A stretch of 56,997 nt of DNA from a virus. The stretch covers positions 1-56,997 of IMG/VR virus record IMGVR_UViG_3300044655_000346; one strand, written 5' to 3'. Numbering within the stretch: the stretch's first letter is position 1; every line of letters begins with the position of its first letter. The notes under the pieces are model-generated. The model did not search any database. It was not told where the DNA came from and saw only the letters and a program-made list of their open reading frames with translations. Positions 3,385 to 47,309 of the stretch are shown one piece after another. The position numbers and the translations under genes are program-made.

Positions 3385-3399
3385 CCGAGGAGCAGCGGC

Positions 3400-16061: not shown

Positions 16062-16411
16062 TGGCTAACAATATACCTTTTCAAGTTCAAGGTAAGACAA
16101 CACGTATTAACGTAACTACTGCGGCTAATACGGTTTCTATCCTTGCTGACAGCCCTTGTAATCAACTCAGAATACACAACGGTACAGCCGCAGAAGTGTT
16201 TATCCGTGTGGGCACAGAAAGCACGGATGCTGCTGTCATTCCTGTTGCGGGTACTCCTGCATATGGAACAGTTTTGCACAACAATCAAACAATCATTATT
16301 ACTTCACCCAAGCAAGCTGCAAACACTGCCGCTAATTCTGTTTATGTCTCAGCCATCGCACCCACAGGCACAGCAATCGTGTATGTAACCCCTGGCGAAG
16401 GCATGGCATAG
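16061..16411 (+). CDS. Putative beta-rich virion protein
   Basis: 116 residues, Ala/Thr/Val-rich. Motifs such as GKTTRINVTTAANTVSILAD, RIHNGTAAEVFIRVGTES and a C-terminal GTAIVYVTPGEGMA suggest a compact beta-sandwich, as in small phage decoration or appendage proteins. No membrane span. Its stop codon TAG supplies the first bases of the ribosome-binding site for the ATT-started gene that follows. Confidence 0.66.
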   Translation: MANNIPFQVQGKTTRINVTTAANTVSILADSPCNQLRIHNGTAAEVFIRVGTESTDAAVIPVAGTPAYGTVLHNNQTIIITSPKQAANTAANSVYVSAIAPTGTAIVYVTPGEGMA

Positions 16412-16420
16412 GGGTTGTAA

Positions 16421-16960
16421 ATTGACCCGTTCACCGCCGCCCTAGCTGCTATTGCTGCAATAAAGCAAGGGGTTGCCCTTTATAAGGACATAAAACAAAC
16501 TGGCGGTGAACTTCACAAGATAACCAAAGAAATCTCTGGTTATATAGGTCAGTTCTTTGAGGCCAATGAAGAGGTCAAAAAGGAGGCGGAAGAGCAAAAG
16601 CGTAACCCTCCTAAATCAAAATCTCTAAAGACGCAAGCACTTGAAAATGTCTTTAACCAGATAGAGTTAGAGCGTCAAGCTGTTGAGTTACGTGAGTTTC
16701 TCATCTATCATGTAGACCCTGCTCTCGGTGCGGTGTGGACAAGATTTGAAGAAGAGTATGCTCGGCTGCGGGAAGAAGAGGAAAGAGAGAGGGGAGAGCA
16801 AGAAGAGAAGGATAGGAGAGCGGCATGGCAACGAAGGCAAATGCTAAACAAACTCCAAGACAAAGCTCTGTTAATCGGAGCAGTCCTCCTAGTTACTATA
16901 TACCTCCACCTCCTCCTATGGTCAATAAGTCTGATGAAGAAGACAACACAAGACTATTGA
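16421..16960 (+). CDS. ATT-initiated membrane/coiled-coil protein (B)
   Basis: 179 residues if started at ATT 16421-16423, six bases after AGGGG (16410-16414). The frame reads (I/M)DPFTAALAAIAAIKQGVAL, then a charged helix to ~145 (YARLREEEERERGEQEEKD), then a C-terminal membrane segment (ALLIGAVLLVTIYLHLLLW) with a short tail. No ATG/GTG/TTG occurs in frame before GTG 16733. The phage A homologue 45188-45886 uses the same ATT-GAY-CC start in the same context. The last 136 bp are overprinted by the next gene. A lysis-region role is likely; mechanism unknown. Confidence 0.75.
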   Translation: MDPFTAALAAIAAIKQGVALYKDIKQTGGELHKITKEISGYIGQFFEANEEVKKEAEEQKRNPPKSKSLKTQALENVFNQIELERQAVELREFLIYHVDPALGAVWTRFEEEYARLREEEERERGEQEEKDRRAAWQRRQMLNKLQDKALLIGAVLLVTIYLHLLLWSISLMKKTTQDY

Positions 16961-17103
16961 TTGTTTTGGTTTGCCTGATGCTTGTTCTTCCCTTGTTTTT
17001 GTATTTGCTTGCATCTATGTATTTTGATATGCTGTTGCTCAAAGAAGAAATAAAACAACAGCAAGCAATCATCCGCAGGTTATTGATTAAGGATGCCAAA
17101 TGA
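16825..17103 (+). CDS. Overprinted membrane protein (B)
   Basis: 92 residues in a different frame over the 3' end of the preceding gene (136-bp overlap); AGGAG lies 6 bases before the start. It has a Ser/Pro-rich N-terminus (PRQSSVNRSSPPSYYIPPPP), a strong membrane span (LLIVLVCLMLVLPLFLYLLA, ~44-63) and a short helical tail (KEEIKQQQAIIRRLL). The phage A counterpart 45763-46050 has the same layout and YIPP motif. It could be a spanin-like or holin-regulating partner. Overlaps the next gene by ATGA. Confidence 0.75.
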   Translation: MATKANAKQTPRQSSVNRSSPPSYYIPPPPPMVNKSDEEDNTRLLIVLVCLMLVLPLFLYLLASMYFDMLLLKEEIKQQQAIIRRLLIKDAK

Positions 17104-17612
17104 TTCCTATTGTTGCCTCTTTGCTAGGTAGCCTTGCCCAAAATGGACTAGGGTTGCTGTCTTCTGCTATTCAAGCAAAAGGCAAAGACGTTGTAGAAAA
17201 AACACTTGGCGTAAAGATTCCTGACAACCCTACACCAGAAGATGTCGCTAAGTTGCGAGAGCTTCAATATGACCATGAAGAACGCCTGTTAGAGCTTGGC
17301 ATAGAGAAAGCCAAGATGGAACTGGCTGAGTTGGATATGTTGGCAAAAGCCGCTCAAAGTGACGCAGATAACGTGACAGACCGTTGGCAAGCAGATATGT
17401 CATCTGACTCTTGGCTGTCCAAGAACATTCGCCCCATGTCTCTTATTGCCATATTTTCTGGGTATTTCCTGTTTGCCATGATGTCTGCCTTTGGTTATAA
17501 CGCCAACGAGTCTTATGTATCCTTGCTCGGACAGTGGGGGATGCTGATAATGGGTGCTTACTTTGGTGGCAGAACCATTGAAAAACTAGCCGAAATGAAA
17601 GGCAGAAAATGA
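17100..17612 (+). CDS. Holin, GTA_holin_3TM-like
   Basis: 170 residues. N-terminal hydrophobic amphipathic segment (PIVASLLGSLAQNGLGLLSS), helical middle with LRELQYDHEERLLELGIEKA, then the family-typical DRWQADMSSDSWLSKNIRPM followed by two membrane spans (SLIAIFSGYFLFAMMSAFG; LGQWGMLIMGAYFGGRTIEK). This matches 3-span holins first described in gene-transfer agents. It would permeabilise the inner membrane to release the endolysin encoded 730 bp downstream. Confidence 0.82.
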   Translation: MIPIVASLLGSLAQNGLGLLSSAIQAKGKDVVEKTLGVKIPDNPTPEDVAKLRELQYDHEERLLELGIEKAKMELAELDMLAKAAQSDADNVTDRWQADMSSDSWLSKNIRPMSLIAIFSGYFLFAMMSAFGYNANESYVSLLGQWGMLIMGAYFGGRTIEKLAEMKGRK

Positions 17613-17833
17613 AAGCCAAGCTGACTTTCCTTGTGACCTTGATGGTTAGCTTTACTCTGTGCATTGTTGTCGTTGGTATGGTTGGCGTTCTAATGTCTGG
17701 ATTGTTTGACGAAAAAGTTGACAATGCAGAAATCTTCAAGCTCATATCACCAGCGTTCCAGACCATTGTTGGCGGCTTTATTGGCTTGCTGGCTGGCGTG
17801 AAGCTGTCTCATGGTGAAACGGAGGAAAAATGA
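17609..17833 (+). CDS. Small two-span membrane protein, holin/antiholin candidate
   Basis: 74 residues with two spans, about 6-32 (FLVTLMVSFTLCIVVVGMVG) and 47-64 (SPAFQTIVGGFIGLLAGVK), and a short acidic end. It overlaps the upstream holin and the downstream endolysin by ATGA each, so the three are translationally coupled. It may be a second holin or a regulator of the first. Confidence 0.7.
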   Translation: MKAKLTFLVTLMVSFTLCIVVVGMVGVLMSGLFDEKVDNAEIFKLISPAFQTIVGGFIGLLAGVKLSHGETEEK

Positions 17834-18171
17834 GCCTCAACACAGAACAAGCCGCATTTTTGCTGGACATGTGTAAGTTGATTACCTACTCTACAGAACA
17901 AGGGTTTGTCGTTACAGGTGGGGAACTTGCCCGTACACCTGAACAACAGGCCATTTATTTCAAGACAGGTCGGTCTAAGACCATGAATTCCATCCACCTG
18001 AAGAGGTGCGCCATAGACTTGAACTTCTTCAAGAATGGAAAGATAATCTGGAGCAAGGAAATCATTGCGCCTTTGGGTGCATACTGGGAGTCCTTGCACC
18101 CTAAGAACAGGTGGGGAGGTAACTTCAAGTCGCTTGTTGACTGCCCCCATTTTGAGAGGAATGTAGGATGA
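17830..18171 (+). CDS. Endolysin, M15 family peptidase (phage B)
   Basis: 113 residues. Zinc-peptidase motifs of the M15 family are visible: S54IHLKRCAIDLN (His56, Asp63 ligands), W86ESLHPKNRWGGNF and D104CPHFER (His107 ligand). Such enzymes cleave peptide bonds in the peptidoglycan stem. The protein is short for the family and has no cell-wall-binding domain or signal peptide, so it needs the adjoining holins. Phage A has a different M15 subtype at 46842-47309. Confidence 0.88.
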   Translation: MSLNTEQAAFLLDMCKLITYSTEQGFVVTGGELARTPEQQAIYFKTGRSKTMNSIHLKRCAIDLNFFKNGKIIWSKEIIAPLGAYWESLHPKNRWGGNFKSLVDCPHFERNVG

Positions 18172-19929: not shown

Positions 19930-20249
19930 GATATATCCTCAATTCTTAAAACATATTTGTTGGTCTTTGCTGACTTGCGCCAGCCATGAACTTCAATTCT
20001 GATTCCAGCATCCCTGACAAGAGCAAGCGTGTCAGAGGCCATAATCTTTTTTATACGGTCACTGACAGCAGAGGCGGTAACCTGCACTGCCAGAACCTCA
20101 CCCTTCCTGATAGCAAGAAGGTCAGCCCACCCCCACAGGTCTTTTCGTTGTTTGGTGAAACTGTTCCACTTCTCAACTACTTCAACGTGGTAGCCCAACT
20201 CACGAAGGTGAGCCAAGCTACGCTGTGTGGGAGAGACTTTCGTTGCCAT
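19926..20249 (-). CDS. PD-(D/E)xK-like nuclease, VRR-NUC style
   Basis: 107 residues from the ATG at 20249, which overlaps the upstream stop (TGATG). N-terminal helices SPTQRSLAHLRELGYHVEVV and then KDLWGWADLLAIRKGEVLAVQVT: D-x(~12-15)-hydrophobic-x-Q-V-T resembles the catalytic beta-hairpin of restriction-like/Holliday-junction nucleases, with Gln in place of the usual Glu and no following Lys. Hence nuclease activity is uncertain. Sits with recombination genes in the early operon. Confidence 0.62.
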   Translation of the reverse strand: MATKVSPTQRSLAHLRELGYHVEVVEKWNSFTKQRKDLWGWADLLAIRKGEVLAVQVTASAVSDRIKKIMASDTLALVRDAGIRIEVHGWRKSAKTNKYVLRIEDIS

Positions 20250-20398
20250 CAATAGCAGTTGGTGTTGCAGTTATTGCCGTAACAGCAGGTGGTGCAAGTC
20301 ACATACCGACCATCTTGTGAGTAGGTGTGTGTTGTACATGCCGCCCAAACCAAAGAACTAGAAACAGAAAGCCAAGCCGCAATTAAAAAATTTTTCAT
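20249..20398 (-). CDS. Exported Cys-rich mini-protein
   Basis: 49 residues. A clear signal peptide (MKNFLIAAWLSVSSSLVWAA, cleavage after AxA-like WAA/VWA) precedes a ~29-residue mature peptide with six cysteines, including the cluster CTTCCYGNNCNTNCY at the end. A strong RBS AGGAGA lies 5-6 bases before the ATG and the stop overlaps the nuclease start (TGATG), so the gene is real in context. The mature product should be a disulfide-rich periplasmic peptide. No family known to me; envelope-directed or superinfection roles are speculative. Confidence 0.7.
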   Translation of the reverse strand: MKNFLIAAWLSVSSSLVWAACTTHTYSQDGRYVTCTTCCYGNNCNTNCY

Positions 20399-20413
20399 TT
20401 TTCTCTCCTGTGA

Positions 20414-20725
20414 TTAAAAGGGTACATCTTCATCGTCATTACGAGCGGGTCTGCGGTTGTAGGATGGCACAACCTCTTTGTCTCCCCGTTCTTCCTCTCT
20501 CTTCTTCTTGCTCCAGTTATCTTCTTTCAAAGCAAGCAAGCTGTGCCCTCGGCTGGTTGGCTTTTGCCAAGCTGCTATTTTCAACTTCTCACCCGCTTTG
20601 TAGTCCATCTCTAGAACAATGAAGCCCTTAAAGTCTGGCCCTTTGGGAGACTTACGCATCTCCTCTTCTTCCCAGTACATCACGCCTGAACCAGGCATTT
20701 CTTTGTGTGCATTTCCTGTTGACAT
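20414..20725 (-). CDS. SSB-like protein with acidic C-terminal tail
   Basis: 103 residues from ATG 20725, selected for its AAAGGAAAGAA leader; in-frame codons further upstream overlap another gene. Contains GFIVLEMDYKAGEKLKIAAW and a Lys/Glu-rich middle, ending RPARNDDEDVPF. The final acidic D-x-D-V-P-F resembles the protein-docking tail of bacterial and phage ssDNA-binding proteins (DDDIPF). A clear OB-fold signature is not visible, so the call rests on the tail and on the neighbouring RecT and exonuclease. Confidence 0.58.
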   Translation of the reverse strand: MSTGNAHKEMPGSGVMYWEEEEMRKSPKGPDFKGFIVLEMDYKAGEKLKIAAWQKPTSRGHSLLALKEDNWSKKKREEERGDKEVVPSYNRRPARNDDEDVPF

Positions 20726-20735
20726 TTCTTTCCTT

Positions 20736-20900
20736 TCAGAGTGTGTACTTTGCGTACTTCTTGCCATTTTCATTAACCATGTGCGTAAAGATTCTGTGTC
20801 CGTCTTTACGAAGACTTTCGATATGTGCTGCAAGCCTGAAACAACCGAATTCATTTAATGCCTCCATTGGTGTCAGGCTTCTCCCGTTTTGCAACCACAT
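20736..20900 (-). CDS. Small winged-helix/HTH protein
   Basis: 54 residues: MWLQNGRSLTPMEALNEFGC, then FRLAAHIESLRKDGHRI and a beta-wing ending NGKKYAKYTL. The LNxFGxxRLAAxIxxLRxxG pattern is the HTH_39-like family found in many phages and bacteria. The start overlaps the RecT stop as TGATG, indicating translational coupling; a shorter start at Met12 is also possible. Likely DNA-binding; may regulate early genes or act in recombination. Confidence 0.72.
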   Translation of the reverse strand: MWLQNGRSLTPMEALNEFGCFRLAAHIESLRKDGHRIFTHMVNENGKKYAKYTL

Positions 20901-21760
20901 CAAAACGTTTGCTCGTTGAGTCCCGAATCGGGAAGTGGTTGGGACTTGTCGGGCTTTGGGGATACTGTTCCTCCTGATTCAACGATGGCTCCTTTGAGTT
21001 TGACTTTATCCATTGTTGAGAAGTTTTCTGTAACAACCTTGTTGCACTCGGCAAGAGAGGAGAGCTTGTCTGCCTTTTCCTCCAGAGAGTATTTTGGGCT
21101 TGCTGTGATGCGTCCGACCATTTGTGCATACCCGTCTATCCATTCCTGTACGCTTGCGTAGCGTTTGTAGGGTTGGTCAGAGTTCGGGACATATAGCGCA
21201 AACGCTCCGTCCTCAACCAGTTCGACAATCTCAACTTCTGGTATGTCTTGAACCCGCTCAACATTACCCATGAACTTTTCTTTGGGAGTTTCAAAATCCT
21301 GGACTTCCTCAGGCGTATAGACTCCGACAACACAGCCTGGAAAGACGGAACGAATGCCCTCGCTAATGACTCTCGCCCTGAGCATTGCTCTTGGATAGTT
21401 CTTCCAATTATCCTTCGTGGCAATCCCAATTTTCTTGGCTTGAGCCAGTGTCCACGTAAGCTCAAGAGTTCCCCCCGAAGGATGCGAAAACACGCCTGTG
21501 ACCTGCTCATCTGTATATTCCTTCCAGTTAACTGAACCACCAGCTTGCTGAAATCTTGCAAGCATTGCGTCTGCTTTAAGTGCTGGTCTGCCTTGGATGA
21601 CATGAAAGTCACGCATAGCTACTGCGGGGTGTAGGTTCTCGGCTTGGCACAAGAGCATGATTGCCATTGCTTCCTGTGTGTTCTTGAAACCAAACATCTT
21701 GCTACCAGCGGCAACCTCTGCCATCTGCTGCATGTCGTTAAAAGCTACGATATTACTCAT
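20900..21760 (-). CDS. RecT-family ssDNA-annealing protein
   Basis: 286 residues. Family-typical run: AMAIMLLCQAENLHPAVAMR, DFHVIQGRPALKADAMLARF, then FSHPSGGTLELTWTLAQAKK, KDNWKNYPRAMLRARVISEG and IRSVFPGCVVGVYTPEEVQD. The C-terminal ~100 residues are variable and acidic. It would anneal complementary strands produced by the YqaJ-like exonuclease 400 bp upstream, supporting recombination-dependent replication and mosaic exchange. Start follows AAGGAAG. No gene symbol assigned as the subgroup is divergent. Confidence 0.82.
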   Translation of the reverse strand: MSNIVAFNDMQQMAEVAAGSKMFGFKNTQEAMAIMLLCQAENLHPAVAMRDFHVIQGRPALKADAMLARFQQAGGSVNWKEYTDEQVTGVFSHPSGGTLELTWTLAQAKKIGIATKDNWKNYPRAMLRARVISEGIRSVFPGCVVGVYTPEEVQDFETPKEKFMGNVERVQDIPEVEIVELVEDGAFALYVPNSDQPYKRYASVQEWIDGYAQMVGRITASPKYSLEEKADKLSSLAECNKVVTENFSTMDKVKLKGAIVESGGTVSPKPDKSQPLPDSGLNEQTF

Positions 21761-21959
21761 TGGGAACTTCCTTTCTTTGTTTCATCATTAACTGTGCTAC
21801 CTCGTAAGAGTCTTTTACATCATCTGCAAGCAGGGTGCGTTGTCTAGCAATAAAGGTTTGCATGGCAAGACCAGCGAACCAGTCTAGTAAATCCATTCCT
21901 CCGCTCTCTGTTGTCTGACCAGAGGTAGGGTGTTTGTGCATGTAGGGATAGGCTTTCAT
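21753..21959 (-). CDS. Small hypothetical early protein
   Basis: 68 residues with DLLDWFAGLAMQTFIARQRT and a helical tail. The (D/L)DWFAGxA pattern is frequent in small phage and prophage genes of unknown role. The start at 21959 overlaps the upstream gene by ATGT/TGA; a shorter start at Met22 (MDLLDWF) is an alternative. Overlaps the RecT start. Confidence 0.66.
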   Translation of the reverse strand: MKAYPYMHKHPTSGQTTESGGMDLLDWFAGLAMQTFIARQRTLLADDVKDSYEVAQLMMKQRKEVPNE

Positions 21960-22156
21960 GTTGTCACCTTCTTGTGTGGTCTGCCTATCTTCTTGCGTGG
22001 TTGACCGTCTTTGTTGACACCGTTTGGATAGGCTTTCATCAACGCATCTATGCGTGTTGTTTGAATTTCTAATCTACCTGTCAAAAATCCAATATCCCTA
22101 TACAAACATTCAATGTGATGTTGCATAACAGCTTTGTCTTTGCTTGTAAAAAACAT
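21956..22156 (-). CDS. Small basic early protein
   Basis: 66 residues; helical N-terminal part (KDKAVMQHHIECLYRDIGFL, GRLEIQTTRIDALM) and a basic C-terminus (PRKKIGRPHKKVTT) resembling an AT-hook core (GRP). It sits directly after the exonuclease gene. DNA binding is plausible; no family recognised. Confidence 0.64.
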   Translation of the reverse strand: MFFTSKDKAVMQHHIECLYRDIGFLTGRLEIQTTRIDALMKAYPNGVNKDGQPRKKIGRPHKKVTT

Positions 22157-22163
22157 GTGAACC

Positions 22164-23057
22164 TCACTTTAAAAGGAATCTACGAGAACCAGGCATGTCA
22201 CGCATGAACTGCTTGTGAATGTCGGGCATGGCTTCTTGGAACAACTTGGCATCGAACTTAATGCTTGACTTGGCTGACTTCCAAGTGGCAAGGACTTTGC
22301 CATCTATGGTGGTCAGTGTGTCCTTGTCTTGCATGTAACCTCTGACAAGGGTGTCGTACTGCTCTTCCTGTGCTTCTAAAGCCTTGATGTTGGCCTTGAT
22401 TTGGGCAAGGGCCATGCAAGCCTGTTCGACACTGGCTGAAGCTGTTTTAATGCTTTCTGTGCTTGTAGGGTAAAGCAGCTTGACTTGCTCAAGGTCTTCA
22501 GGTGGGAGGGTAGTTTGAGCTTGGACATGTCCCCAGATGACTGCCATTTGCTTGATAAGGTCTTCCTTCTGTTCTTCTGTGATGTTGAAGGGAATGAGGA
22601 GGAATTCCTGACCACCGAATAGTACGGCGAGATAAACCATATCGACAGAGAATACAGCTGCTTCGTGTACCAGTTGAGCCATGTCTGCTGGAGGACAGAC
22701 CCCCGCAATATCGAACTTATTGCGAGTTGCTGCGTTGTAGTTCTTAGCTTCAACGAGAAATGTCTTACCGCCTTGTTTACCAGCAAAGTCAAAATGAGAC
22801 TTAAACCAAGGGTGTTTGGCATGTGTGAGACTCTCCTCAATTTTGGTTAACTCTACGCCTAGCTTGGCCTGTGCGAGTCTGCCGATTACAGGCTCCATGA
22901 CATGACCCATCTGAACTGCTTCAACGTGGGAGATGTCTTCTATTTCCATCTTGCCTTGCTTTGTCAGGATGACTTCGTTGGCTTTGCCGCTGGCTACCTT
23001 GCGAGAGTCCCCTGACCATATGGCAGAGTTACGGGTTTCTGGTGTGAAGTCAGACAT
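22164..23057 (-). CDS. YqaJ-like viral recombinase / exonuclease
   Basis: 297 residues. Lambda-exo/YqaJ PD-(D/E)xK core: SDFTPETRNSAIWSGDSRKV at the N-terminus, Glu55 in GHVMEPVI, Asp90 in SHFDFAG, and Glu103/Lys105 in FLVEAKNYN. The C-terminal third is helical (QIKANIKALEAQEEQYDTLV). The enzyme would resect double-strand ends for RecT. Order exonuclease-small genes-RecT-HTH-SSB-like reproduces a typical phage recombination module. RBS region lies in the overlapping upstream gene. Confidence 0.84.
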   Translation of the reverse strand: MSDFTPETRNSAIWSGDSRKVASGKANEVILTKQGKMEIEDISHVEAVQMGHVMEPVIGRLAQAKLGVELTKIEESLTHAKHPWFKSHFDFAGKQGGKTFLVEAKNYNAATRNKFDIAGVCPPADMAQLVHEAAVFSVDMVYLAVLFGGQEFLLIPFNITEEQKEDLIKQMAVIWGHVQAQTTLPPEDLEQVKLLYPTSTESIKTASASVEQACMALAQIKANIKALEAQEEQYDTLVRGYMQDKDTLTTIDGKVLATWKSAKSSIKFDAKLFQEAMPDIHKQFMRDMPGSRRFLLK

Positions 23058-23307
23058 ACTTGGCCTCCTTGAGCATGAGTTCTTCTTCTTCTGGAGTCAT
23101 CACATGGTCAGCAGCTTCCCAGTTTTCTGCTTCAGGCTTACAACGCCCTGTATTGCGTCTTTCAAGCTCGGCAAAGGGGCGAGTATCCCTTTCCCGAAAT
23201 GAGCCTGTTACAAGGCTTATAGTGAGGTCTTGCCCGCATCTAGCGTTATCGTCTATCTTCCCTGACAAAGAGGGAATTACATACTTGCAGTTTTTGCACA
23301 GCTTCAT
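23050..23307 (-). CDS. Small zinc-knuckle-like protein
   Basis: 85 residues from ATG 23307 (a GTG two codons earlier is possible). Starts MKLCKNCKYVIPSLSGKIDD with a CxxC pair, a third Cys in NARCGQDL and a fourth in TGRCKPEAE, spaced like a small zinc-binding unit. The C-terminus is acidic (MTPEEEELMLKEAKYV). Coupled to the exonuclease gene by overlap. Function unknown. Confidence 0.66.
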   Translation of the reverse strand: MKLCKNCKYVIPSLSGKIDDNARCGQDLTISLVTGSFRERDTRPFAELERRNTGRCKPEAENWEAADHVMTPEEEELMLKEAKYV

Positions 23308-23383
23308 GGTCACGAACCTTTCAGTTAAATGTTGAGGATTAGATTATAAGCACAGTTAATTAGATGATGCAACAGTTATTTTT

Positions 23384-23893
23384 TCATGTGTTCTTCTCCT
23401 TGAGTTTTGCTTCAATGGCATCAAACGCAGGTTTACCAATCATCATTTCGCAATAGTCTTCAATGTCATTGCGTTCTTGTTCCGTCAGCCCTACCCATGC
23501 GGATGGCTTGCCAGACGATTCGCTGCGCTGTGGTGGGGTACAAGTGTGAATGTCCTTTGTGCGTTTGCCGCATCGTGAGCAAAAGTTGCGTTCTTCTAGC
23601 TGTGGTGGGGTAGTGCGAGTTAGATGCTTCAGCCAATCAGCCTGATGCCACTCATCTTGACCGTTGATACGCAACTTGATGTCAGTCATGTGTGCGTGTC
23701 TTGCTCGGTCAATCAAGCGTTGAATTGAATCCACTTGAAGGCTGTTGATTTTTTCATCTGTAATAAGCCACGCCACAGGCTCTTGCGTCTGTGCCAAGGC
23801 TTCTTTGACTGCATCACGGGCTTTCTGCCACTTCATTAGGCTTGCTCTATCCTCCAACGCATCAAGCACCAACTTTAATTCATCTTGTGTCAT
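23384..23893 (-). CDS. Hypothetical early protein with Cys motif
   Basis: 169 residues. N-terminal helical unit MTQDELKLVLDALEDRASLM with WQKARDAVKEALAQTQEP (a common start of phage early proteins), middle WHQADWLKHL, a CSRCGK...HTC zinc-ribbon-like motif near 103-117, and a C-terminal helix LTEQERNDIEDYCEMMIGKP. Probably a nucleic-acid or protein-binding accessory factor. The 76-bp gap to the next gene downstream is AT-rich and may hold a promoter. Confidence 0.64.
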   Translation of the reverse strand: MTQDELKLVLDALEDRASLMKWQKARDAVKEALAQTQEPVAWLITDEKINSLQVDSIQRLIDRARHAHMTDIKLRINGQDEWHQADWLKHLTRTTPPQLEERNFCSRCGKRTKDIHTCTPPQRSESSGKPSAWVGLTEQERNDIEDYCEMMIGKPAFDAIEAKLKEKNT

Positions 23894-24102
23894 CGGGATT
23901 CTCCTTCCAAGTCTTGTAAAGCAATATCAGGCATATAGGGGCTATCGTCAGGACTGAGCCGAGTGTGAGCAGCAGAGTCCAGGCTAGAACATTTGTCATG
24001 TATGTCTCCAGTGATGGTTAGGGCTTTTATGATGGCAGAGGGGGGGTGCAATATGCCACCTCTGACTTGGTTTAAGAGTTGATTTGCTTCTTGTCTGTTC
24101 AT
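23890..24102 (-). CDS. Small hypothetical early protein
   Basis: 70 residues, polar, no membrane span: MNRQEANQLLNQVRGGILHP, then SAIIKALTITGDI. Coupled to the downstream gene by ATGA. First gene after the 24.1-24.5 kb non-coding stretch, so a promoter for the recombination genes should lie upstream of it. Function unknown. Confidence 0.6.
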   Translation of the reverse strand: MNRQEANQLLNQVRGGILHPPSAIIKALTITGDIHDKCSSLDSAAHTRLSPDDSPYMPDIALQDLEGESR

Positions 24103-24404
24103 GGTTACTTTCTTTTAGACAATACAAGGGCTACGGTAGGGATGATGATTAGTCAATGTCCTACTTTCAGCCTTGGGGCTGTCCTGTATGGGGCTTACAC
24201 CCGTATACAGTTCTGCTGCTTTATTTATCGACCCAACTATTCCGTAGTTGCCACGGTTGACTATCAGCCTACATGGTCGTTTATCACTTGGGGCAGAACC
24301 CTCGTGCAGCCGTCCCCCTTGGGTCAAGCTGAACCGCTTTGCTTCCACGCTGCCACAGTCGGGGGCACTTACTATCGTGTGGAGTACGGTTGACGTAGTA
24401 GGGG
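24103..24404. other. 302-bp stretch without a credible gene
   Basis: A minus-strand frame is open across 24115-24519 and a plus-strand frame across 24079-24393, but neither has an RBS and both have Cys/His/Pro/Arg-heavy compositions typical of non-coding frames. Because it follows a minus-strand terminator and precedes the recombination genes, it is a candidate promoter/regulatory region. I see no convincing -35/-10 pair. Confidence 0.45.
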
Positions 24405-24480
24405 CAAAAAAAATCCACTTACAACTGCCCTCGGTGAGAACCCTAAAGTAAATACCAAGGGCGAGAGCATGTGTAAGTGG
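24405..24480 (-). terminator. Nested-stem terminator or small structured RNA
   Basis: On the minus strand CCACTTACA (24480-24472) pairs with TGTAAGTGG (24423-24415). Inside, GCCCTTGGT (24462-24454) pairs with ACCGAGGGC (24435-24427) with one G-U. The structure is followed directly by a run of eight U (A's at 24406-24413). It lies about 50 bp after the acetyltransferase stop, so it probably ends that operon; the nested shape is larger than an ordinary terminator. Confidence 0.78.
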
Positions 24481-24531
24481 ACTAATTCTGTCGCTTCTCA
24501 CGGCAACGGGGTAAATCATAACATCAAACCT

Positions 24532-25119
24532 TTATTCTTTGTCAATGACTATTTTTCGGTAGTCTGTCAAAGCCTTTCCTCGGCTGAATCCAGTTATCAA
24601 ACCAGTAGATTTATTCTTTCTCCACAACGTAGAACTGGTCTTACCAACAGCGGGTTCTAATGCTAATGTTTCAAATAGTTCGGGGGCTAATTGTTTGCGC
24701 CACACGTTGATTTTCCGCATACGCCTTGCGCCTCCGTCCACAATGCTTACGCACTCGTAGCCTAGAGACTTCCAAAATCTATTAGCGTCAAGGTCAAAGC
24801 CACAGCGTAGTGAAACAGATGTAGCCCTGCCTTCGTTGGCGTATTCCTCCATCGCTGACACAAGGGCAGCACCGTAGTGCCGTAACCTTGCGTCATACTG
24901 GATGCAGACTTGATGGCACTTCACATGGTCACCTTGTGCGCCCATGTAGATGTAGCCGCATGGCTCGCCATTGAGTAGCCCTAAAAACAATCTACCCTTT
25001 TCTAATTCTCTTTCAAATACTTGTGTGGGGTAAAACGATAGGGCTTCTGCGTTAAGCCTTTGCAGTTTGTCCACGTACAAAAGAAAGTCAGGGTGTTGCT
25101 GAACTACGACAAAATCCAT
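24532..25119 (-). CDS. GNAT-type acetyltransferase
   Basis: 195 residues. The GNAT core is suggested by LFLGLLNGEPCGYIYMGAQG, HVKCHQVCIQYDARLRHYGA (acetyl-CoA loop position R/Q-x-x-G-x-A), ALVSAMEEYANEGRATSVSL and FWKSLGYECV. The C-terminal ~60 residues are basic. Targets are unknown; phage GNAT proteins may modify host proteins or nucleobases. It ends the short-gene part of the early operon and is followed by a strong terminator. Confidence 0.72.
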   Translation of the reverse strand: MDFVVVQQHPDFLLYVDKLQRLNAEALSFYPTQVFERELEKGRLFLGLLNGEPCGYIYMGAQGDHVKCHQVCIQYDARLRHYGAALVSAMEEYANEGRATSVSLRCGFDLDANRFWKSLGYECVSIVDGGARRMRKINVWRKQLAPELFETLALEPAVGKTSSTLWRKNKSTGLITGFSRGKALTDYRKIVIDKE

Positions 25120-25120
25120 A

Positions 25121-25303
25121 TCAATAGCCTGAAGTAATAAGGGCAGTCAAATACCCTGCCACAAAGCAGCCAAGGTATATCACTACCCTGTCCGACAATG
25201 GGGGCTTTTCTTGCCATTCTGGGCTAGATGGGAAAGCATCCCGTAGGGTACGTGGGTACTTGCGTGGGGTGTCGTTCAAGTATTCGGGCTTGAATTTAAT
25301 CAT
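25121..25303 (-). CDS. Small tail-anchored membrane protein
   Basis: 60 residues. Soluble N-terminus with YLNDTPRKYPRTLRDAFPSS, then a C-terminal membrane span (VVIYLGCFVAGYLTALI). Start uses the AGAGGATATAGCCCC leader also seen before the next two upstream genes. ATGA-type overlap with the gene at 25300. Function unknown. Confidence 0.62.
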   Translation of the reverse strand: MIKFKPEYLNDTPRKYPRTLRDAFPSSPEWQEKPPLSDRVVIYLGCFVAGYLTALITSGY

Positions 25304-25494
25304 GGGGCTATATCCTCTGTTACTTTGATAAGGGCATCAAAAGCAATTTTTGCTTCCTTTGTTCTATGGGGCGGGAATTGCAGCTTTTGCTCTTCCGTGT
25401 ATTTTTCCCAATGGGGCGGGTAATGGGTGCCTGTTTGCTCTATTTCACGCAAAGCCTTGAAAAGCATAGATATTGTTTGTTCTTGCTGTGTCAT
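25300..25494 (-). CDS. Small hypothetical early protein
   Basis: 64 residues: helical N-terminus MTQQEQTISMLFKALREIEQ, then HYPPHWEKYTEEQKLQFPPH, then a helix. Leader AAAAGGAATAGCCCC precedes the ATG; start and stop overlap both neighbours (ATGA). No family recognised. Confidence 0.62.
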   Translation of the reverse strand: MTQQEQTISMLFKALREIEQTGTHYPPHWEKYTEEQKLQFPPHRTKEAKIAFDALIKVTEDIAP

Positions 25495-25655
25495 GGGGCT
25501 ATTCCTTTTAAGGCTTCAATTTGGGCTATTTCACTAGTAAACCATTCGACGTGAACAATATCGTCCCCGCCTTCATCGTTGGAATACTCCACTCCCCATT
25601 TGTGCGTGGGGTGTGAATCGTCATAACAGGGGAATTTGTATTGTTGGTCAATCAT
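25491..25655 (-). CDS. Small acidic early protein
   Basis: 54 residues: MIDQQYKFPCYDDSHPTHKW, then GVEYSNDEGGDDIVHVEWF and a short helix. Leader AAAGGATAAGCCCC precedes the ATG, and the stop overlaps the next start as ATGA. The net charge is strongly negative, a feature of some phage host-takeover or DNA-mimic proteins, but nothing specific supports that here. Confidence 0.66.
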   Translation of the reverse strand: MIDQQYKFPCYDDSHPTHKWGVEYSNDEGGDDIVHVEWFTSEIAQIEALKGIAP

Positions 25656-25660
25656 GGGGC

Positions 25661-25972
25661 TTATCCTTTCTCAATAAGGGTTAAAAGGGCTTTAATTGTG
25701 CGTTCTAAGTCTTTGGCAACATGGGGCTTATAGCAAGGGTCTTCGCTTGCATCTTCGATAAAGGGCAAACACTTGTAAAGCAATTCGAGCATATCGGGGG
25801 CAGCAGCCATAAGACGGGCATTTGCATACCCTTGTGCGTCATAGTCGGGTTGCTTTTTAAGGCTTGGGGCTTTTAAAATGGTTGCGTTGCCGATACTTGG
25901 GCCATCATCAGCGGGGACAATGTAGCGGCCTTGTGTGTGCCAAGGGCCAGGGGTTGGTTGTGTGTGTGTCAT
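25661..25972 (-). CDS. Conserved phage/bacterial hypothetical protein
   Basis: 103 residues. Starts THTQPTPGPWHTQGRYIVPA and contains YANARLMAAAPDMLELLYKC, a signature I associate with a very common phage protein (GPW...NARLIAAAPDLL) of unknown function. Leader AAAGGATAGTATCC before the ATG. Part of the short early operon after the terminator at 26139-26162. Confidence 0.74.
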   Translation of the reverse strand: MTHTQPTPGPWHTQGRYIVPADDGPSIGNATILKAPSLKKQPDYDAQGYANARLMAAAPDMLELLYKCLPFIEDASEDPCYKPHVAKDLERTIKALLTLIEKG

Positions 25973-25998
25973 GGATACTATCCTTTCAAAGGTTGGGT

Positions 25999-26118
25999 TT
26001 AAATTAAGTCTTGCAAAATGTCATATAAAACATGGGCGGGCAAGCCTGTAATTTCAAGCAAATCAGCCCAGGTCAACTCGTTACTTTCAAATTTATCTCG
26101 CATTGTTTGAACATTCAT
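25999..26118 (-). CDS. Tiny early protein
   Basis: 39 residues: MNVQTMRDKFESNELTWADL then LEITGLPAHVLYDILQDL. GGAG lies nine bases before the ATG. The pattern L-T-W-x-D-L...T-G-L-P resembles a small helix-turn-helix-like recognition unit. It is the first gene after the 26139-26162 terminator. Confidence 0.55.
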   Translation of the reverse strand: MNVQTMRDKFESNELTWADLLEITGLPAHVLYDILQDLI

Positions 26119-26138
26119 GGTCACGGACTCCAAAGGTT

Positions 26139-26162
26139 AAAAAAAGGGGCATACAAGCCCCT
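26139..26162 (-). terminator. Rho-independent terminator, early operon
   Basis: Minus strand AGGGGC-TTGTAT-GCCCCT followed by a run of seven U. It begins 9 bp after the stop of the gene at 26171 and separates the clamp-side early genes from the group at 24.5-26.1 kb. Confidence 0.8.
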
Positions 26163-26170
26163 ACAAGGGG

Positions 26171-26458
26171 TTATCTCAATTCTTTTGCGGGTATGTAGCC
26201 ATGCTCGGCCATAAATTCTTTTACGGTCAAATGCTTGGCCTTGTACGTATCGCCATACTTGGTGAAACAGGCATAAACGGCTTCGCCCTTTTCGTTATGG
26301 TCGTTGGCCTCGCCTACTAGGAAATTTTGCCCTAGCATTTTTATGGGCGGTACTACTTCTAACATCTGCCAATACATGGCTTCGGTTGTTGGTATCCAAG
26401 CATCGGGGTTTGCGTCCATTGCATCCCACAATTCTTTCCATTCGAGGGGCTTATTCAT
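26171..26458 (-). CDS. Hypothetical early protein
   Basis: 95 residues. N-terminal MNKPLEWKELWDAMDANPDA (similar starts occur in phage proteins of unknown role), then TEAMYWQMLEVVPPIKMLGQ and YACFTKYGDTYKAKHLTVKE, ending AEHGYIPAKELR. Overlaps the upstream gene by ATGA and is followed by a terminator. No catalytic motif. Confidence 0.66.
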   Translation of the reverse strand: MNKPLEWKELWDAMDANPDAWIPTTEAMYWQMLEVVPPIKMLGQNFLVGEANDHNEKGEAVYACFTKYGDTYKAKHLTVKEFMAEHGYIPAKELR

Positions 26459-26730
26459 GCTGTCACCTCTTCTTTTTTGGTCAATTCATTGATACGCTTG
26501 CATAAATCTTGCAAGTTGTAGCACTGAAACACAATGCCACCGCCATATTTTTTATTGTGAAACCGTTTGCCGCCTAGGGTACGGGCAAGTGATACCGCTA
26601 GGTTATACCGTTGCGATAAATCAATACCCGAATGCATGCCGTGTACGTCCAAATGTAGGAAATGGCAAACATAGCGAGGGTTCCCGTTAACGTCATTGAT
26701 AACACGGGTAAAATCAGATGATTCAATCAT
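26455..26730 (-). CDS. Hypothetical early protein
   Basis: 91 residues. Contains RYVCHFLHLDVHGM, SQRYNLAVSLARTLGGKRFH and YGGGIVFQCYNLQDLCKRIN. No membrane span or known motif. Start preceded by AAGGAAG. A GATTATC...GATAATC palindrome begins 29 bp upstream of the start, the same distance as for the clamp gene, suggesting shared regulation. Confidence 0.66.
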   Translation of the reverse strand: MIESSDFTRVINDVNGNPRYVCHFLHLDVHGMHSGIDLSQRYNLAVSLARTLGGKRFHNKKYGGGIVFQCYNLQDLCKRINELTKKEEVTA

Positions 26731-26758
26731 AGGAACTTCCTTTTCAAGTTGATTATGT

Positions 26759-26776
26759 GATTATCGAATGATAATC
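26759..26776. promoter_or_regulatory. Palindrome GATTATC-N4-GATAATC
   Basis: Perfect 7-bp inverted repeat with 4-bp spacer, located 29 bp upstream of the start codon at 26730. A second copy with a 6-bp spacer lies 29 bp upstream of the clamp gene start. Likely a repressor operator or RNA hairpin; the T-run expected of a terminator is missing. Confidence 0.6.
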
Positions 26777-26809
26777 CCTATGCCCACATAATGAGCATAG
26801 AAGTATCAC

Positions 26810-27445
26810 TTAGGCTGCTACGGGTTCAATTGTTGCAACTTTAGGCCGTGAGCACCACGTAGGCACGTTAACGCTACCATGTTCCCTCATAGGCATGATA
26901 ATTCCTACGAATAACGGTTCACTGTCAATATTGACAACGCCGCTATCGTTACCCCGTTGCTTAATTTGAACGGATATACCCGTTGACTTATGCCCTCTTA
27001 AATCGTTTGCACAATCGTAAAAGGCTTGTATGTATTCGGGGTTATATGTACTTGGTTCAATACCGCTATCACTTGTCAGCTTAGGAATAACACGGTCACA
27101 ATCAGGAAATTTACCCTCTACGGCTTGAAATACCATGCTACTACTATCGGGGTTGATAACGGTAATTTTTACCCCGTCAACCGTAAAGCATAATGATTCA
27201 TTACCTTTTTTACCCGTTGCTGCTAAGGTTTTCACGCTATCAAGCGGCAAAATAACGCTACAAGGGTTTGCTATCGGTGTTTCATCTACAAGCAAACGGC
27301 CTAGCATATGCCCGTTCGTTGCTTCGATATACGTGCCCCTGTTATCTTGCACTACGTGCAAACCGTTCAAATAATAGCGAATGTCTTTTGTCGCTGCAAT
27401 GCGTGACATGCCTTTGAGTTGTTTACGTTGAATTGAAAATTGCAT
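26810..27445 (-). CDS. Sliding-clamp-like (DnaN fold) protein
   Basis: 211 residues. Beta-clamp patterns: MSRIAATKDIRYYLNGLHVV, then GTYIEATNGHMLGRLLVDET, CSVILPLDSVKTLAAT, VFQAVEGKFPDCDRVIPKLT and a C-terminal beta region. These match strand order and the A-T-(D/N)-G-H-x-L and FPD(Y/C)xxVIP motifs of DnaN. At 211 residues it is two thirds of bacterial DnaN and close to the two-domain T4-type clamp. No phage polymerase is seen, so it may engage host polymerase or mismatch-repair proteins. Confidence 0.72.
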   Translation of the reverse strand: MQFSIQRKQLKGMSRIAATKDIRYYLNGLHVVQDNRGTYIEATNGHMLGRLLVDETPIANPCSVILPLDSVKTLAATGKKGNESLCFTVDGVKITVINPDSSSMVFQAVEGKFPDCDRVIPKLTSDSGIEPSTYNPEYIQAFYDCANDLRGHKSTGISVQIKQRGNDSGVVNIDSEPLFVGIIMPMREHGSVNVPTWCSRPKVATIEPVAA

Positions 27446-27473
27446 ACTATGCTCGCTTTCATTTGAAGTTGAC

Positions 27474-27493
27474 GATTATCACTATTGATAATC
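27474..27493. promoter_or_regulatory. Palindrome GATTATC-N6-GATAATC
   Basis: Second copy of the inverted repeat, 29 bp upstream of the clamp-gene start at 27445, with spacer ACTATT. No U-run follows on either strand, so an operator is favoured over a terminator. Confidence 0.6.
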
Positions 27494-27527
27494 CTACAAA
27501 GCCCTGTAAACAAGGCCTTGTAAGGTA

Positions 27528-27719
27528 TCACAATGGTTCAAAGCCTAAGCCATATCCCGCATACCCTAGAGTTGTACAACCCGCAAACCATGTCTCTAGG
27601 TCATAATCGCTTGCAACATGATAAGCCCCATCATCGAATACAACCCAATAATCATCGCTATGAGTGTTTGACATGCGAATAGCGGCCTTTGCTGCATCAT
27701 TAAAAGTTGAATAAGCCAT
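27528..27719 (-). CDS. Small hypothetical early protein
   Basis: 63 residues from ATG 27719, with AAGGGG eight bases upstream; an earlier ATG at 27761 has no RBS. Contains MAYSTFNDAAKAAIRMSNTH, DDYWVVFDDGAYHVASDYDL, ETWFAGC. The pattern resembles small phage proteins with an N-terminal A-A-K-A-A helix followed by W-V-V strands. Unknown function. Confidence 0.66.
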   Translation of the reverse strand: MAYSTFNDAAKAAIRMSNTHSDDYWVVFDDGAYHVASDYDLETWFAGCTTLGYAGYGLGFEPL

Positions 27720-27729
27720 TGTTTGCCCC

Positions 27730-27906: not shown

Positions 27907-27991
27907 GGTTACTAACCCCTTAAAGTTGATTGATTGATTGATACGCTAAAGCATATCGCATAGCCTACGTTATAGGCTATACGCTAGGCTT

Positions 27992-28528: not shown

Positions 28529-28571
28529 TAACTAATCACATAATCACCATAACAGTGCATCCTGTTAACAG

Positions 28572-45026: not shown

Positions 45027-45178
45027 CACCAGTTGAAGCACGATTAGACACGCACGAACAAGTGTGCGAGTTTCGCTACGACAGCATCAACGCTCGACTC
45101 AAGCGCATTGAGCAGATATTGATAGGGTCATGCGCTGCCATCATTGGTATGCTGTTGACGCTGGTGCTGAAGCTCTAG
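45023..45178 (+). CDS. Small tail-anchored membrane protein
   Basis: 51 residues: a soluble helix VEARLDTHEQVCEFRYDSIN, RLKRIEQI, then a C-terminal span LIGSCAAIIGMLLTLVLKL. Its stop TAG is the start of the AGGAG ribosome-binding site of the following ATT-started gene. Holin regulator or virion-edge role possible; unknown. Confidence 0.66.
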   Translation: MTPVEARLDTHEQVCEFRYDSINARLKRIEQILIGSCAAIIGMLLTLVLKL

Positions 45179-45187
45179 GAGCTGTAA

Positions 45188-45886
45188 ATTGATCCGATCA
45201 GCATCTGTCTGCTTGCCGCTGGGTTGGTTAAGAACATCCAAGCCGGATGCGAGCTGTACAAGCAAGCCAAGGAATCCTTTGTTGAGATCAAAGCCACTGC
45301 TGATGAAGTCATCGCAATTGGCAAAGAGGTTCATGGATTTTGGAATCAACTGCTGTCATTCTTTGGTGGCAAACAAAAGCCAGCCGCCAGTGCAAAGCCT
45401 CTGGCGAAAAAGAAGCAAGCCTATGTCGCAGTTGATGAGACTCAAGTCAAGATTGACATTGTCAGAAGCCTGACCGAGTTTTTCAAGCTACAAGAACAAC
45501 TGGCCGCGCACATCAGGGAGGAAGAAGAGAAAAGCCAAACTGTCTATGACCCTGATCAAAACCTCATGGAAGCTGCCTTAAAGCGTGTGATGGCGCAACA
45601 AGAGATGGACAGGCTGGTGATTCAAATCCGAGAGACTATGGTGTATCAGTCACCGCCAGAGATGGGCGCACTGTACTCCGAAGTCTTCAAGATGCGCGAA
45701 GTCATCTCAGAGGAACAGGAAAAAGCTAGACTCAAGGAGGAGGCGAAGAAGAGGCAAGACAGATGGCTACACCGTCAAGAGGAAAGAAACCTGCAAGCAA
45801 AGCTGGCGGGAGTAGTGGTGACTTTTATATTCCTCCTGTACCTGTGGCTGTGGCTGTGGTTCGTAAGTCACTGGGGGAAGAGATGA
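45188..45886 (+). CDS. ATT-initiated membrane/coiled-coil protein (A)
   Basis: 232 residues from ATT 45188-45190, exactly six bases after AGGAG (45177-45181). Reads (I/M)DPISICLLAAGLVKNIQAG, then charged helices (EKSQTVYDPDQNLMEAALKR; VFKMREVISEEQEKARLKEE) and a C-terminal span LAGVVVTFIFLLYLWLWLWF. The nearest downstream alternatives (CTG 45209, TTG 45224) would remove residues aligned with the B homologue 16421-16960. The last 124 bp are overprinted by the next gene. Confidence 0.75.
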   Translation: MDPISICLLAAGLVKNIQAGCELYKQAKESFVEIKATADEVIAIGKEVHGFWNQLLSFFGGKQKPAASAKPLAKKKQAYVAVDETQVKIDIVRSLTEFFKLQEQLAAHIREEEEKSQTVYDPDQNLMEAALKRVMAQQEMDRLVIQIRETMVYQSPPEMGALYSEVFKMREVISEEQEKARLKEEAKKRQDRWLHRQEERNLQAKLAGVVVTFIFLLYLWLWLWFVSHWGKR

Positions 45887-46050
45887 TCGGATGGATTGCG
45901 GCTTGCGTACTGATTGCCCTGCTATTGCCTTTGATGGCAATACTGTATCTAGATGTGCTGGAAGTGAAGAACGAGTCCAAGCAGCAGATCGAAAAGGTGG
46001 AAGCATTGCGTAAAAAGATCGAGCAAAAGGAAAGGGACAAAGATGAGTAA
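45763..46050 (+). CDS. Overprinted membrane protein (A)
   Basis: 95 residues: basic Ser/Gly-rich N-terminus (MATPSRGKKPASKAGGSSGD) with YIPPVPVAV, a membrane span (WIAACVLIALLLPLMAILYL, ~43-62), then a charged helix (KNESKQQIEKVEALRKKIEQ). Layout and the G-S-S/YIPP region match 16825-17103. Its first 124 bp overlap the preceding gene in another frame, so two membrane proteins are encoded by the same DNA. Confidence 0.75.
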   Translation: MATPSRGKKPASKAGGSSGDFYIPPVPVAVAVVRKSLGEEMIGWIAACVLIALLLPLMAILYLDVLEVKNESKQQIEKVEALRKKIEQKERDKDE

Positions 46051-46369
46051 GCAACTGGAAAAAGATTCTGAATTCAACAAGTTTGATACTGACCATGATG
46101 GCGTTGTGACTGACAGCGAACTAGCACGGTCCGAGCGCATGATCACCATTGAGAACATGGACAAGATGGCAGACCAGCAACGCATCATGGCGTGGGCTGC
46201 CTTGGTTTTTCCTCCCGTCATCATTGCGTACATGGCTTCCGAGCTAGTGACGCTGGAGAAGGTTAATGCGCTGAACGGTTTGGCCACCACCTACTGCGCC
46301 GCCATGGGAACGATTGTGGTGGCATTCATGGCGGCACAGGCGTATGTCAGGGGCAAGGCTGAGTCATGA
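46043..46369 (+). CDS. EF-hand-containing two-span membrane protein, putative holin
   Basis: 108 residues. An apparently canonical EF-hand loop is at 15-26: D15-T-D17-H-D19-G20-V-V22-T23-D-S-E26. Two membrane spans follow (IMAWAALVFPPVIIAYMAS; ATTYCAAMGTIVVAFMAAQA). Size and location between the overprinted pair and the spanins suit a holin; the calcium-binding motif before the membrane domain is unusual. A lone EF-hand would be cytoplasmic or periplasmic depending on topology. Confidence 0.68.
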   Translation: MSKQLEKDSEFNKFDTDHDGVVTDSELARSERMITIENMDKMADQQRIMAWAALVFPPVIIAYMASELVTLEKVNALNGLATTYCAAMGTIVVAFMAAQAYVRGKAES

Positions 46370-46845
46370 CGATATTTAACCCTTGGGTGATTCTTGGCTT
46401 TGTGCTGGCCATGGGCACTGCTTTCAGCGGTGGATACTACAAGGGTAAAGATTCAGAGTACCAGCGCCAGCAAATAGAGATTGCCGAGTTAAACGCCAAG
46501 GCGCGTGAGACTGAGCAAGCGATGGCAAAGGTAGCGCAGACATACGGTGACACATTACGAAAGGCGAACAATGTTGCAAAGGCTAAAGAAAATCAGTTGC
46601 GTGCTGATCTCAGCAGTGGTGCTCTCAAGCTGCGGCTTCCTGTCAAAGCGCCCAACTGCGCCGTTCCAGTGTCCGAAACCGCCACCGCTGCCAGCGGAAG
46701 TGACAGCGGAGAAGCAAGAGCCGAATCTAGTGGATCGGTTGATGTCGCTGCCGATCTTCTCCAGATCGCAGCCGATGGAGATGCCGCCATCAGAAAACTC
46801 AACACCTGTCTTGAATCCTACGAAACCATAAGGAACACCAAATGA
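46366..46845 (+). CDS. i-spanin (Rz-like)
   Basis: 159 residues. N-terminal signal-anchor (WVILGFVLAMGTAFSGGYYK), then a long periplasmic helix (YQRQQIEIAELNAKARETEQ ... KAKENQLRADLSSG), a Pro/Val region with a Cys (PVKAPNCAVPV) and a C-terminal helix (AADGDAAIRKLNTCLESYET). This is the plan of Rz inner-membrane spanins. A lipoprotein o-spanin is nested in another frame. Coupled to holin and endolysin by ATGA overlaps. Confidence 0.82.
   Translation: MTIFNPWVILGFVLAMGTAFSGGYYKGKDSEYQRQQIEIAELNAKARETEQAMAKVAQTYGDTLRKANNVAKAKENQLRADLSSGALKLRLPVKAPNCAVPVSETATAASGSDSGEARAESSGSVDVAADLLQIAADGDAAIRKLNTCLESYETIRNTK
46571..46831 (+). CDS. o-spanin (Rz1-like lipoprotein), nested
   Basis: 86 residues wholly within the i-spanin gene in another frame. 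Signal peptide MLQRLKKISCVLISAVVLSS with lipobox LSS-C21, then a Pro-rich mature part (CPKPPPLPAEV) typical of Rz1. AAGG lies 6 bases before ATG 46571. It is anchored to the outer membrane and pairs with Rz to fuse the two membranes at lysis. Confidence 0.8.
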   Translation: MLQRLKKISCVLISAVVLSSCGFLSKRPTAPFQCPKPPPLPAEVTAEKQEPNLVDRLMSLPIFSRSQPMEMPPSENSTPVLNPTKP

Positions 46846-47309
46846 ACTTATCAGCAAATTTCACTCTGAAAGAACTCACAAAGTCTGAGACAGCGACACG
46901 CTTGGATATTGACAATACGCCAAATGAAGAGCAGATCGAGTCATTGCGTTTGCTCTGCGAAAACATCTTGCAACCAGTGCGCGATCATTTTGGCAAGCCT
47001 GTGAAGATTTCATCTGGGTTCAGATGTAGTGCTTTGAATCAGGCGGCTGGAGGCTCTGCTACCTCGGACCATTGCAAGGGCCAAGCCTGCGATTTTGAGA
47101 TTGATGGTGTACCCAATCCTGAGTTGGCAGCGTGGATCGAAAGCAATCTGAAATTCACTCAATTGATATTAGAGTTTTACACGCCAGGCGGTGATCCAAA
47201 TGCGGGGTGGGTGCATTGCTCATATTCGCCATCAAACCTTAAATCTCAGTCACTCACCGCCACCAAGGTTGCCGGTAAGACTACCTACTTGAATGGCTTG
47301 GTGGCATAA
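46842..47309 (+). CDS. Endolysin, M15A-type peptidase (phage A)
   Basis: 155 residues. Begins MNLSANFTLKELTKSETATR, continues ILQPVRDHFGKPVKISSGFR, then SDHCKGQACDFE (His77, Asp84) and GWVHCSY (His125), the zinc ligands of Peptidase_M15_3. Lacks a signal peptide, so it depends on the holin. Differs from the B endolysin by subtype and length. Confidence 0.9.
   Translation: MNLSANFTLKELTKSETATRLDIDNTPNEEQIESLRLLCENILQPVRDHFGKPVKISSGFRCSALNQAAGGSATSDHCKGQACDFEIDGVPNPELAAWIESNLKFTQLILEFYTPGGDPNAGWVHCSYSPSNLKSQSLTATKVAGKTTYLNGLVA

Follow-up and report, generated by a model that had tools for sequence, protein, structure and literature searches.

Architecture of the locus

The stretch of DNA analysed here, referred to as the window, comprises 56,997 bases and corresponds to one IMG/VR record. 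It contains two copies, A and B, of a gene pair whose members, ORF1 and ORF2, encode membrane proteins and share part of their DNA in different frames (Table 1). The coordinates of both genes given in an earlier note on this DNA, as well as its overlaps of 136 nt in B and 124 nt in A, proved exact. The same holds for its account of what is encoded there: in either copy, one frame of the shared DNA specifies the C-terminal membrane span of ORF1 and the other a Ser/Pro/Gly-rich YIPP segment of ORF2. The phase is common to both copies, with ORF2 codon position 1 falling on ORF1 position 3.

The note had further placed the arrangement in two phages. Both copies are real, but they lie within a single record, which probably is a composite of two phages with a join near 20000–30000 of window 1–56997. 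Among terminase relatives, 20–42 kb stay together, and tail segments like window 1857–3591 directly precede the A-type ATT gene in relatives. Late genes accordingly occur twice in the record, one set being B-type and the other A-type. Either misassembly or a real fusion may account for this.

Table 1 Features of the two gene pairs and of the adjoining lysis cassettes in the window
Feature	Position	Strand	Properties
Ribosome-binding site AGGGG, copy B	16410..16414	+	6 nt before ATT; from sequence and class statistics
ORF1, copy B	16421..16960	+	ATT start, 179 aa; helical cytoplasmic part (predicted) and C-terminal membrane span; kept in 80 loci
ORF2, copy B	16825..17103	+	ATG start, 92 aa; disordered Ser/Pro N terminus (YIPPPPP), one membrane span, charged helix
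ORF1/ORF2 overlap, copy B	16825..16960	+	136 nt; ORF2 ATG formed by last base of an Ala codon and ORF1 Trp TGG
Holin-like protein (B)	17100..17612	+	PHROG 3427 holin, E 4e-14; 4-nt start overlap with ORF2 stop (ATGA)
Small hydrophobic membrane protein, B lysis cassette	17609..17833	+	From sequence; no family match
M15-type endolysin (B cassette)	17830..18171	+	PHROG 465 endolysin, E 1e-16; Pfam Peptidase_M15_4
Ribosome-binding site AGGAG, copy A	45177..45181	+	6 nt before ATT; from sequence and class statistics
ORF1, copy A	45188..45886	+	ATT start, 232 aa
ORF2, copy A	45763..46050	+	ATG start, 95 aa; residues 1–36 disordered, continuous helix 37–94 with span
ORF1/ORF2 overlap, copy A	45763..45886	+	124 nt
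EF-hand-like-loop protein with two hydrophobic segments (A holin candidate)	46043..46369	+	8-nt start overlap with ORF2 end
Rz-like i-spanin of A	46366..46845	+	PHROG 2466, E 3e-15
Embedded Rz1-like o-spanin of A	46547..46831	+	Lipobox LSSC, Pro-rich; internal ATG probably the true start
M15 endolysin of A	46842..47309	+	PHROG 894, E 3e-45; Pfam Peptidase_M15_3

Spread and geometry of the overlap

The overlap is a genuine, ancient, and conserved feature. Five scans of viral contigs with ORF1 queries yielded 320 analysable loci, which fall into clades A, B, B2, C, and D; ORF1 proteins of A and B share ~32% identity and those of other clade pairs 25–30%. The earlier note had proposed looking for the ATT gene and its overlapped partner elsewhere. 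With 95 nt taken as the minimum length shared with ORF2, the arrangement is present in 271 of the 320 loci, spread over five clades and with lengths of 100–172 nt. Kinship of the loci inflates such counts; independent pairs and a tree served instead wherever feasible. Nearly all loci of A and B2 share a fixed length of 124 nt, and nearly all of B one of 136 nt; lengths in C and D are more variable.

ORF2 begins with ATG in 256 of the overlap loci and with GTG in 15, and its first base always immediately precedes a Trp codon of ORF1. Across all 198 distinct contexts, this codon reads TGG and the third base of the preceding codon is A or G. Within the first set of loci, the start (ATG/GTG) occupies the same place in every full-length locus except L002, where ORF1 merely ends 9 nt earlier. 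One sub-clade of C is devoid of the overlap. Herein, ORF1 is C-terminally extended and starts with ATG, and the tree shows a single loss of the overlap. ATG start and overlap loss coincide in this one evolutionary event, which is too few for a statistical coupling.

Constraint on the two reading frames

ORF1 is under strong constraint along its whole length, with dNN/dSN values in the overlap of 0.29 (A), 0.22 (B1), and 0.28 (B2). Going from the upstream part into the overlap, its third-position differences in clade A decrease from 0.143 to 0.085, and second-position differences increase from 0.020 to 0.043. Compared with its upstream part, ORF1 has a relative synonymous rate in the overlap of 0.60 [0.41–0.81] in A, 0.65 [0.47–0.85] in B1, and 0.88 [0.70–1.09] in B2, the latter showing no depression; in A and B1, it lies below that of every equal-sized upstream window. 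Measured against a local control, the ratio is 0.44 [0.28–0.65] in D, 0.60 [0.32–0.95] in one subset of C, 1.36 [0.80–2.28] in another (3 pairs), and 0.75 [0.53–1.01] in B.

For ORF2, dNN/dNS in the overlap amounts to 0.82 (A), 0.56 (B1), and 1.58 (B2), with all intervals including 1. Past the overlap, its dN/dS of 0.34, 0.20, and 0.23 (A, B1, and B2) is that of a protein-coding sequence. Constraint on ORF2 is clear there; at the N terminus it is weak and not found in every clade. Among the ORF1-synonymous changes observed across clades, 21.7 (unweighted) or 25 (codon-usage weighted) would be expected to create a stop in ORF2, and at most 1.5 are seen. Given the ORF1 protein and codon usage, the mean chance of an open ORF2 frame is 0.09–0.30 per sequence depending on the clade (uncorrected for phylogeny), and all 87 dereplicated overlaps are open. 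Stop avoidance together with the constraint after the overlap shows that ORF2 is a gene and that its long frame is maintained.

As judged from these substitution patterns, the overlap is dual coding, with the ORF2 frame maintained by selection and its start codon kept. The overlapping part of ORF2, a disordered tail, is held only loosely by selection: its frame has to remain open, but its sequence may vary. The conserved overprinting claimed by the earlier note stands insofar as two real membrane proteins share DNA, ORF1 is constrained, and the ORF2 frame is kept open. In the stricter sense of two constrained frames, it is supported only in part: the synonymous rate of ORF1 is depressed in A, B1, D, and one subset of C, but B2 lacks such a depression and dNN/dNS of ORF2 is not significantly below 1. 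Constraint on a single frame only, which the note had named as the pattern that would speak against it, was not what the substitution analysis of both frames gave.

Initiation of ORF1

The start codon of ORF1 in the 271 overlap loci is ATT in 170, GTG in 95, ATC in three, and ATA, TTG, and ATG in one each. The lone ATG is that of L321; a second ATG case, L330, has a TTG start of ORF2. Between the upstream stop and the ATT, an in-frame ATG, GTG, or TTG is absent in 173 of 175 ATT loci, and in 55 loci with ATT, ATC, or ATA, a stop codon directly precedes the start. Asp/Glu-Pro is conserved at residues 2–3 in the ATT frame. The type of start codon changes 19 times on the tree, with just two cases of the ATG state. 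By these counts, ORF1 avoids ATG across the whole family; the earlier note had seen the ATT start but not this wider pattern. Ribosome-binding sites are good before 76 of 119 ATT starts and, hence, ORF1 need not be very scarce.

GTG starts lie inside ATGTG in 83 of 102 cases. The product of the AUG frame at these sites is not conserved in length (2–100 codons), so that the AUG seems to compete for initiation and not to open another gene. A start of ORF1 at TTG, in +1 of ATTG, was rejected: in B, this frame runs into a stop after seven codons, and it is the third positions of the Asp-Pro codons, as read in the ATT frame, that vary.

Two further observations concern this region. The ORF1 proteins of L163 and L216 are 99% identical, whereas their upstream sequences are wholly different, with a GTG in ATGTG in the former and ATG-ATT in the latter; this suggests recombination right at the start codon. 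In addition, the +1 frame at the beginning of ORF1 (window 45189–45473 and its equivalents in clades A and D), a candidate third ORF, is open over 86–109 codons in 24 of 24 clade-A representatives and over at least 80 codons in 18 of 26 clade-D representatives. In clade A, three stop-creating changes occur in this frame, compared with 30–33 expected unweighted and 7.1 when weighted by codon usage, so that the apparent depletion of stops becomes smaller upon weighting.

Protein anatomy and relatives

The C-terminal membrane span of ORF1 covers residues 149–167 of 179 in B and 208–226 of 232 in A. It is the strong span of the protein, the N-terminal stretch reaching only 1.3 on the hydropathy scale. 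The AlphaFold2 single-chain model (mean pLDDT 80) consists of five helices, the last of which is 75 residues long and ends in the span. Lys and Arg flanking the span average 3.95 before and 1.57 after it, an imbalance that predicts the N-terminal part to be cytoplasmic. The ORF2 model (mean pLDDT 70) shows a disordered stretch (1–36) and one helix (37–94); with 1.62 Lys and Arg before its single span and 2.94 after, the topology is ambiguous.

A lipobox pattern occurs in 25 of 112 ORF2 representatives. The ten matches listed all lie at residues 45–53, in or adjoining the span, so that none of these ten has the N-terminal lipobox of an outer-membrane lipoprotein. A lipobox within the first 40 residues, as in unimolecular spanins, is found in none of 61 ORF1 representatives. 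ORF1 also does not follow the i-spanin plan of an N-terminal span and a periplasmic coiled coil.

Searches of Pfam, PHROGs, PADLOC, and PDB sequences gave nothing convincing, with phrog_32327 (function unassigned) at E ~1e-4; ORF2 had no PHROG match. Foldseek gave no match in the PDB and only unnamed homologues in a viral library. No relative was found in GTDB genomes and, hence, no clue to the host; in INPHARED, no cultured phage with the pair was found. Across these databases, no named family or solved fold matches the pair. Homologues of ORF1 by fold or sequence are uncharacterised proteins of uncultured Caudovirales (e.g., A0A6J5SJA7 and A0A6J5L7T4) and of the Manatee Spring phages MW202462 and MW202484. 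In the GenBank entries of the latter two (L162 and L163, respectively), both ORF1 and ORF2 are misannotated: ORF1 starts 20–27 nt late and ORF2 has ~46 aa, which hides the overlap. At L321:5865–6371, downstream of ORF2, lies a further protein built much alike, with an MIDP start, a helical body, and a C-terminal span; it has relatives in Manatee Spring phages.

Genomic context

The pair sits in the late operon with tail-type genes just upstream. Within 6 kb downstream, Rz is present in 60 of 61 clade-A loci, a holin-like gene in 22 of 23 B and 27 of 30 B2 loci, and a GH19-type enzyme (annotated as chitinase A) in 14 of 21 C and 25 of 32 D loci; for loci without the overlap, lysis genes are found within 6 kb in about 2 of 24. 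Directly after ORF2, 46 B/B2 loci have a holin gene that overlaps it by 4 nt, and about 21 D loci have a holin-like gene. In clade A, the next gene encodes a lipoprotein in 75 loci and an EF-hand protein in 32; for the latter type, the EF-hand matches at 46043..46369 of the window are weak and all under the curated cut-off. Spanin and endolysin genes follow the holin, EF-hand, or lipoprotein gene. This pattern of neighbours across clades makes the pair a constant head on exchangeable lysis genes. Both the 6-kb and the next-gene context place lysis genes beside the pair in each of the five overlap clades; the lysis or lysis-inhibition module suspected in the earlier note is a putative one. The small lipoprotein after ORF2 in the 75 clade-A loci (L162:5827–6027, CSDRYRYKCQDP in L162) is separate from Rz1.

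Comparison with known systems

A formal parallel is given by overlapped two-component spanins (P2, T5, and Jersey type), which likewise combine two envelope proteins, a lysis cassette, and different frames. Their overlaps measure 116–155 bp and are often missed by annotation (PMC6139136). In contrast to spanins, the pair contains no outer-membrane lipoprotein, its first protein has no N-terminal signal or anchor, and both proteins are predicted to reside in the inner membrane. Furthermore, it precedes the holin and coexists with a true Rz/Rz1 in A.

Regarding initiation, infC, the gene of IF3, resembles ORF1 by its conserved AUU (or AUC) start and the lack of an in-frame alternative. It is the classical AUU-started gene, and IF3 represses AUU starts (PMC5472188). 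The product of ORF1, however, is an unrelated phage membrane protein, and a GUG in AUGUG replaces the AUU in many relatives. Ambiguous AUGUG initiation sites are known from Escherichia coli, where they can feed two frames and where, at intermediate spacing, the AUG is used ~10-fold more than the GUG in vivo (PMC9841429). ORF1 shares the ATGTG site and differs by an AUG-frame product unconserved in length.

The holin T of phage T4 is delayed by small membrane or cytoplasmic proteins, the antiholins RI and RIII (PMC8385771). This system is alike in idea only; no family or PDB match of ORF1 points to it.

Putative function

Because of its position at the lysis genes, a role in holin timing is the best guess for the pair. 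It is tentatively regarded as a two-protein inner-membrane component heading the lysis operon that most likely regulates the triggering of the holin, as a timer or antiholin-like complex, although this falls somewhat short of an even chance. The putative link to lysis is drawn entirely from genomic context. ORF1 is predicted to be helical, with its N-terminal part in the cytoplasm and an anchor provided by the C-terminal span that ends the 75-residue helix; ORF2 would consist of the disordered N-terminal tail, one membrane span, and a charged helix. The two proteins may bind each other near the membrane, with their ratio being set by translation. Initiation of ORF1 would occur from AUU, or from a GUG in AUGUG with a competing out-of-frame AUG, and would be weak, so that few ribosomes cross the ORF2 start. 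ORF2 would initiate at its own ATG inside ORF1 and pass ribosomes to the holin or lipoprotein gene via overlapping stop and start codons. ORF1 may thereby be kept at low levels compared with ORF2 and the holin, which is what a timer sensitive to dose requires. The simplest purpose would be to hold the ORF1:ORF2 ratio fixed and low while sparing the ORF2 start from passing ribosomes. The AUU start would moreover render ORF1 sensitive to IF3. A more specific version, a speculative one and rather unlikely in its full form, is a translationally metered lysis timer, in which a tail-anchored ORF1 with a weak AUU or AUGUG start is coupled to its out-of-frame partner and the holin, and the time of lysis tracks host initiation (e.g., the IF3-to-ribosome ratio).

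The pair could instead belong to the hole-forming machinery itself, as an accessory or two-component holin in which ORF2 inserts and ORF1 triggers or gates from the cytoplasm. ORF2 is small, single-span, and coupled to the holin gene, and the gene after ORF2 in A is just a holin candidate rather than a known holin. A separate holin-like gene nevertheless lies directly downstream in B, B2, and D, and a holin subunit would not usually have a cytoplasmic part as large and conserved as that of ORF1, which makes this reading unlikely, if still a serious competitor.

Small phage membrane proteins often serve exclusion or protection, and a late superinfection-exclusion or membrane-protection complex might merely adjoin the lysis genes. 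Phage Fc02 has been described as having two overlapping genes and exclusion activity, with a protein that is unrelated and DEDDh exonuclease-like (PMC9936078). The pair, however, keeps its head position while the lysis genes are exchanged, and no defence-family match of weight was found, so that exclusion appears rather improbable.

The tail-type genes just upstream would suit a virion or ejection component, encoded by the last genes of the structural operon and packaged in few copies; among internal proteins of phages, helical and membrane-active ones do occur. Such an assignment is distinctly improbable given the strong membrane span in both proteins, unusual for a virion protein, and the lysis genes as downstream neighbours.

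That there is no true overlap is very improbable. ORF2 would then start at a short site by the ORF1 stop (ATGA in A and TTGA in B), and its upstream extension would be a by-product of ORF1. An ATG or TTG is indeed present there in A and B, the short form is annotated in MW202462, the N terminus of ORF2 is weakly constrained, and B2 is without synonymous depression. Against this, most loci of B2 and many elsewhere lack the short start (they read ATAATT, ATAGTT, or GTAGTT) but keep the long ATG or GTG, and a purine always precedes the ORF1 Trp codon, with stops in the ORF2 frame being avoided; the short start was rejected. A degenerate or unusual spanin pair has a negligible likelihood: spanin genes typically overlap out of frame within a lysis cassette (PMC6139136), but neither N terminus has a lipobox, ORF1 carries its span at the C terminus, and a separate Rz/Rz1 is present in A, the last being the ground on which the earlier note had set the pair apart from Rz/Rz1.

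The overlapping pair, with holin timing as its preferred role, is probably an undescribed part of lysis control in many uncultured aquatic phages. If true, phage lysis regions would harbour, in addition to the spanins, another type of overlapping gene pair. Although frequent in aquatic metagenomes, the pair readily escapes notice, as both ATT starts and long overlaps are disfavoured by gene finders. Its avoidance of ATG through ~19 changes of the start codon represents a natural experiment on the weak initiation of one phage gene.
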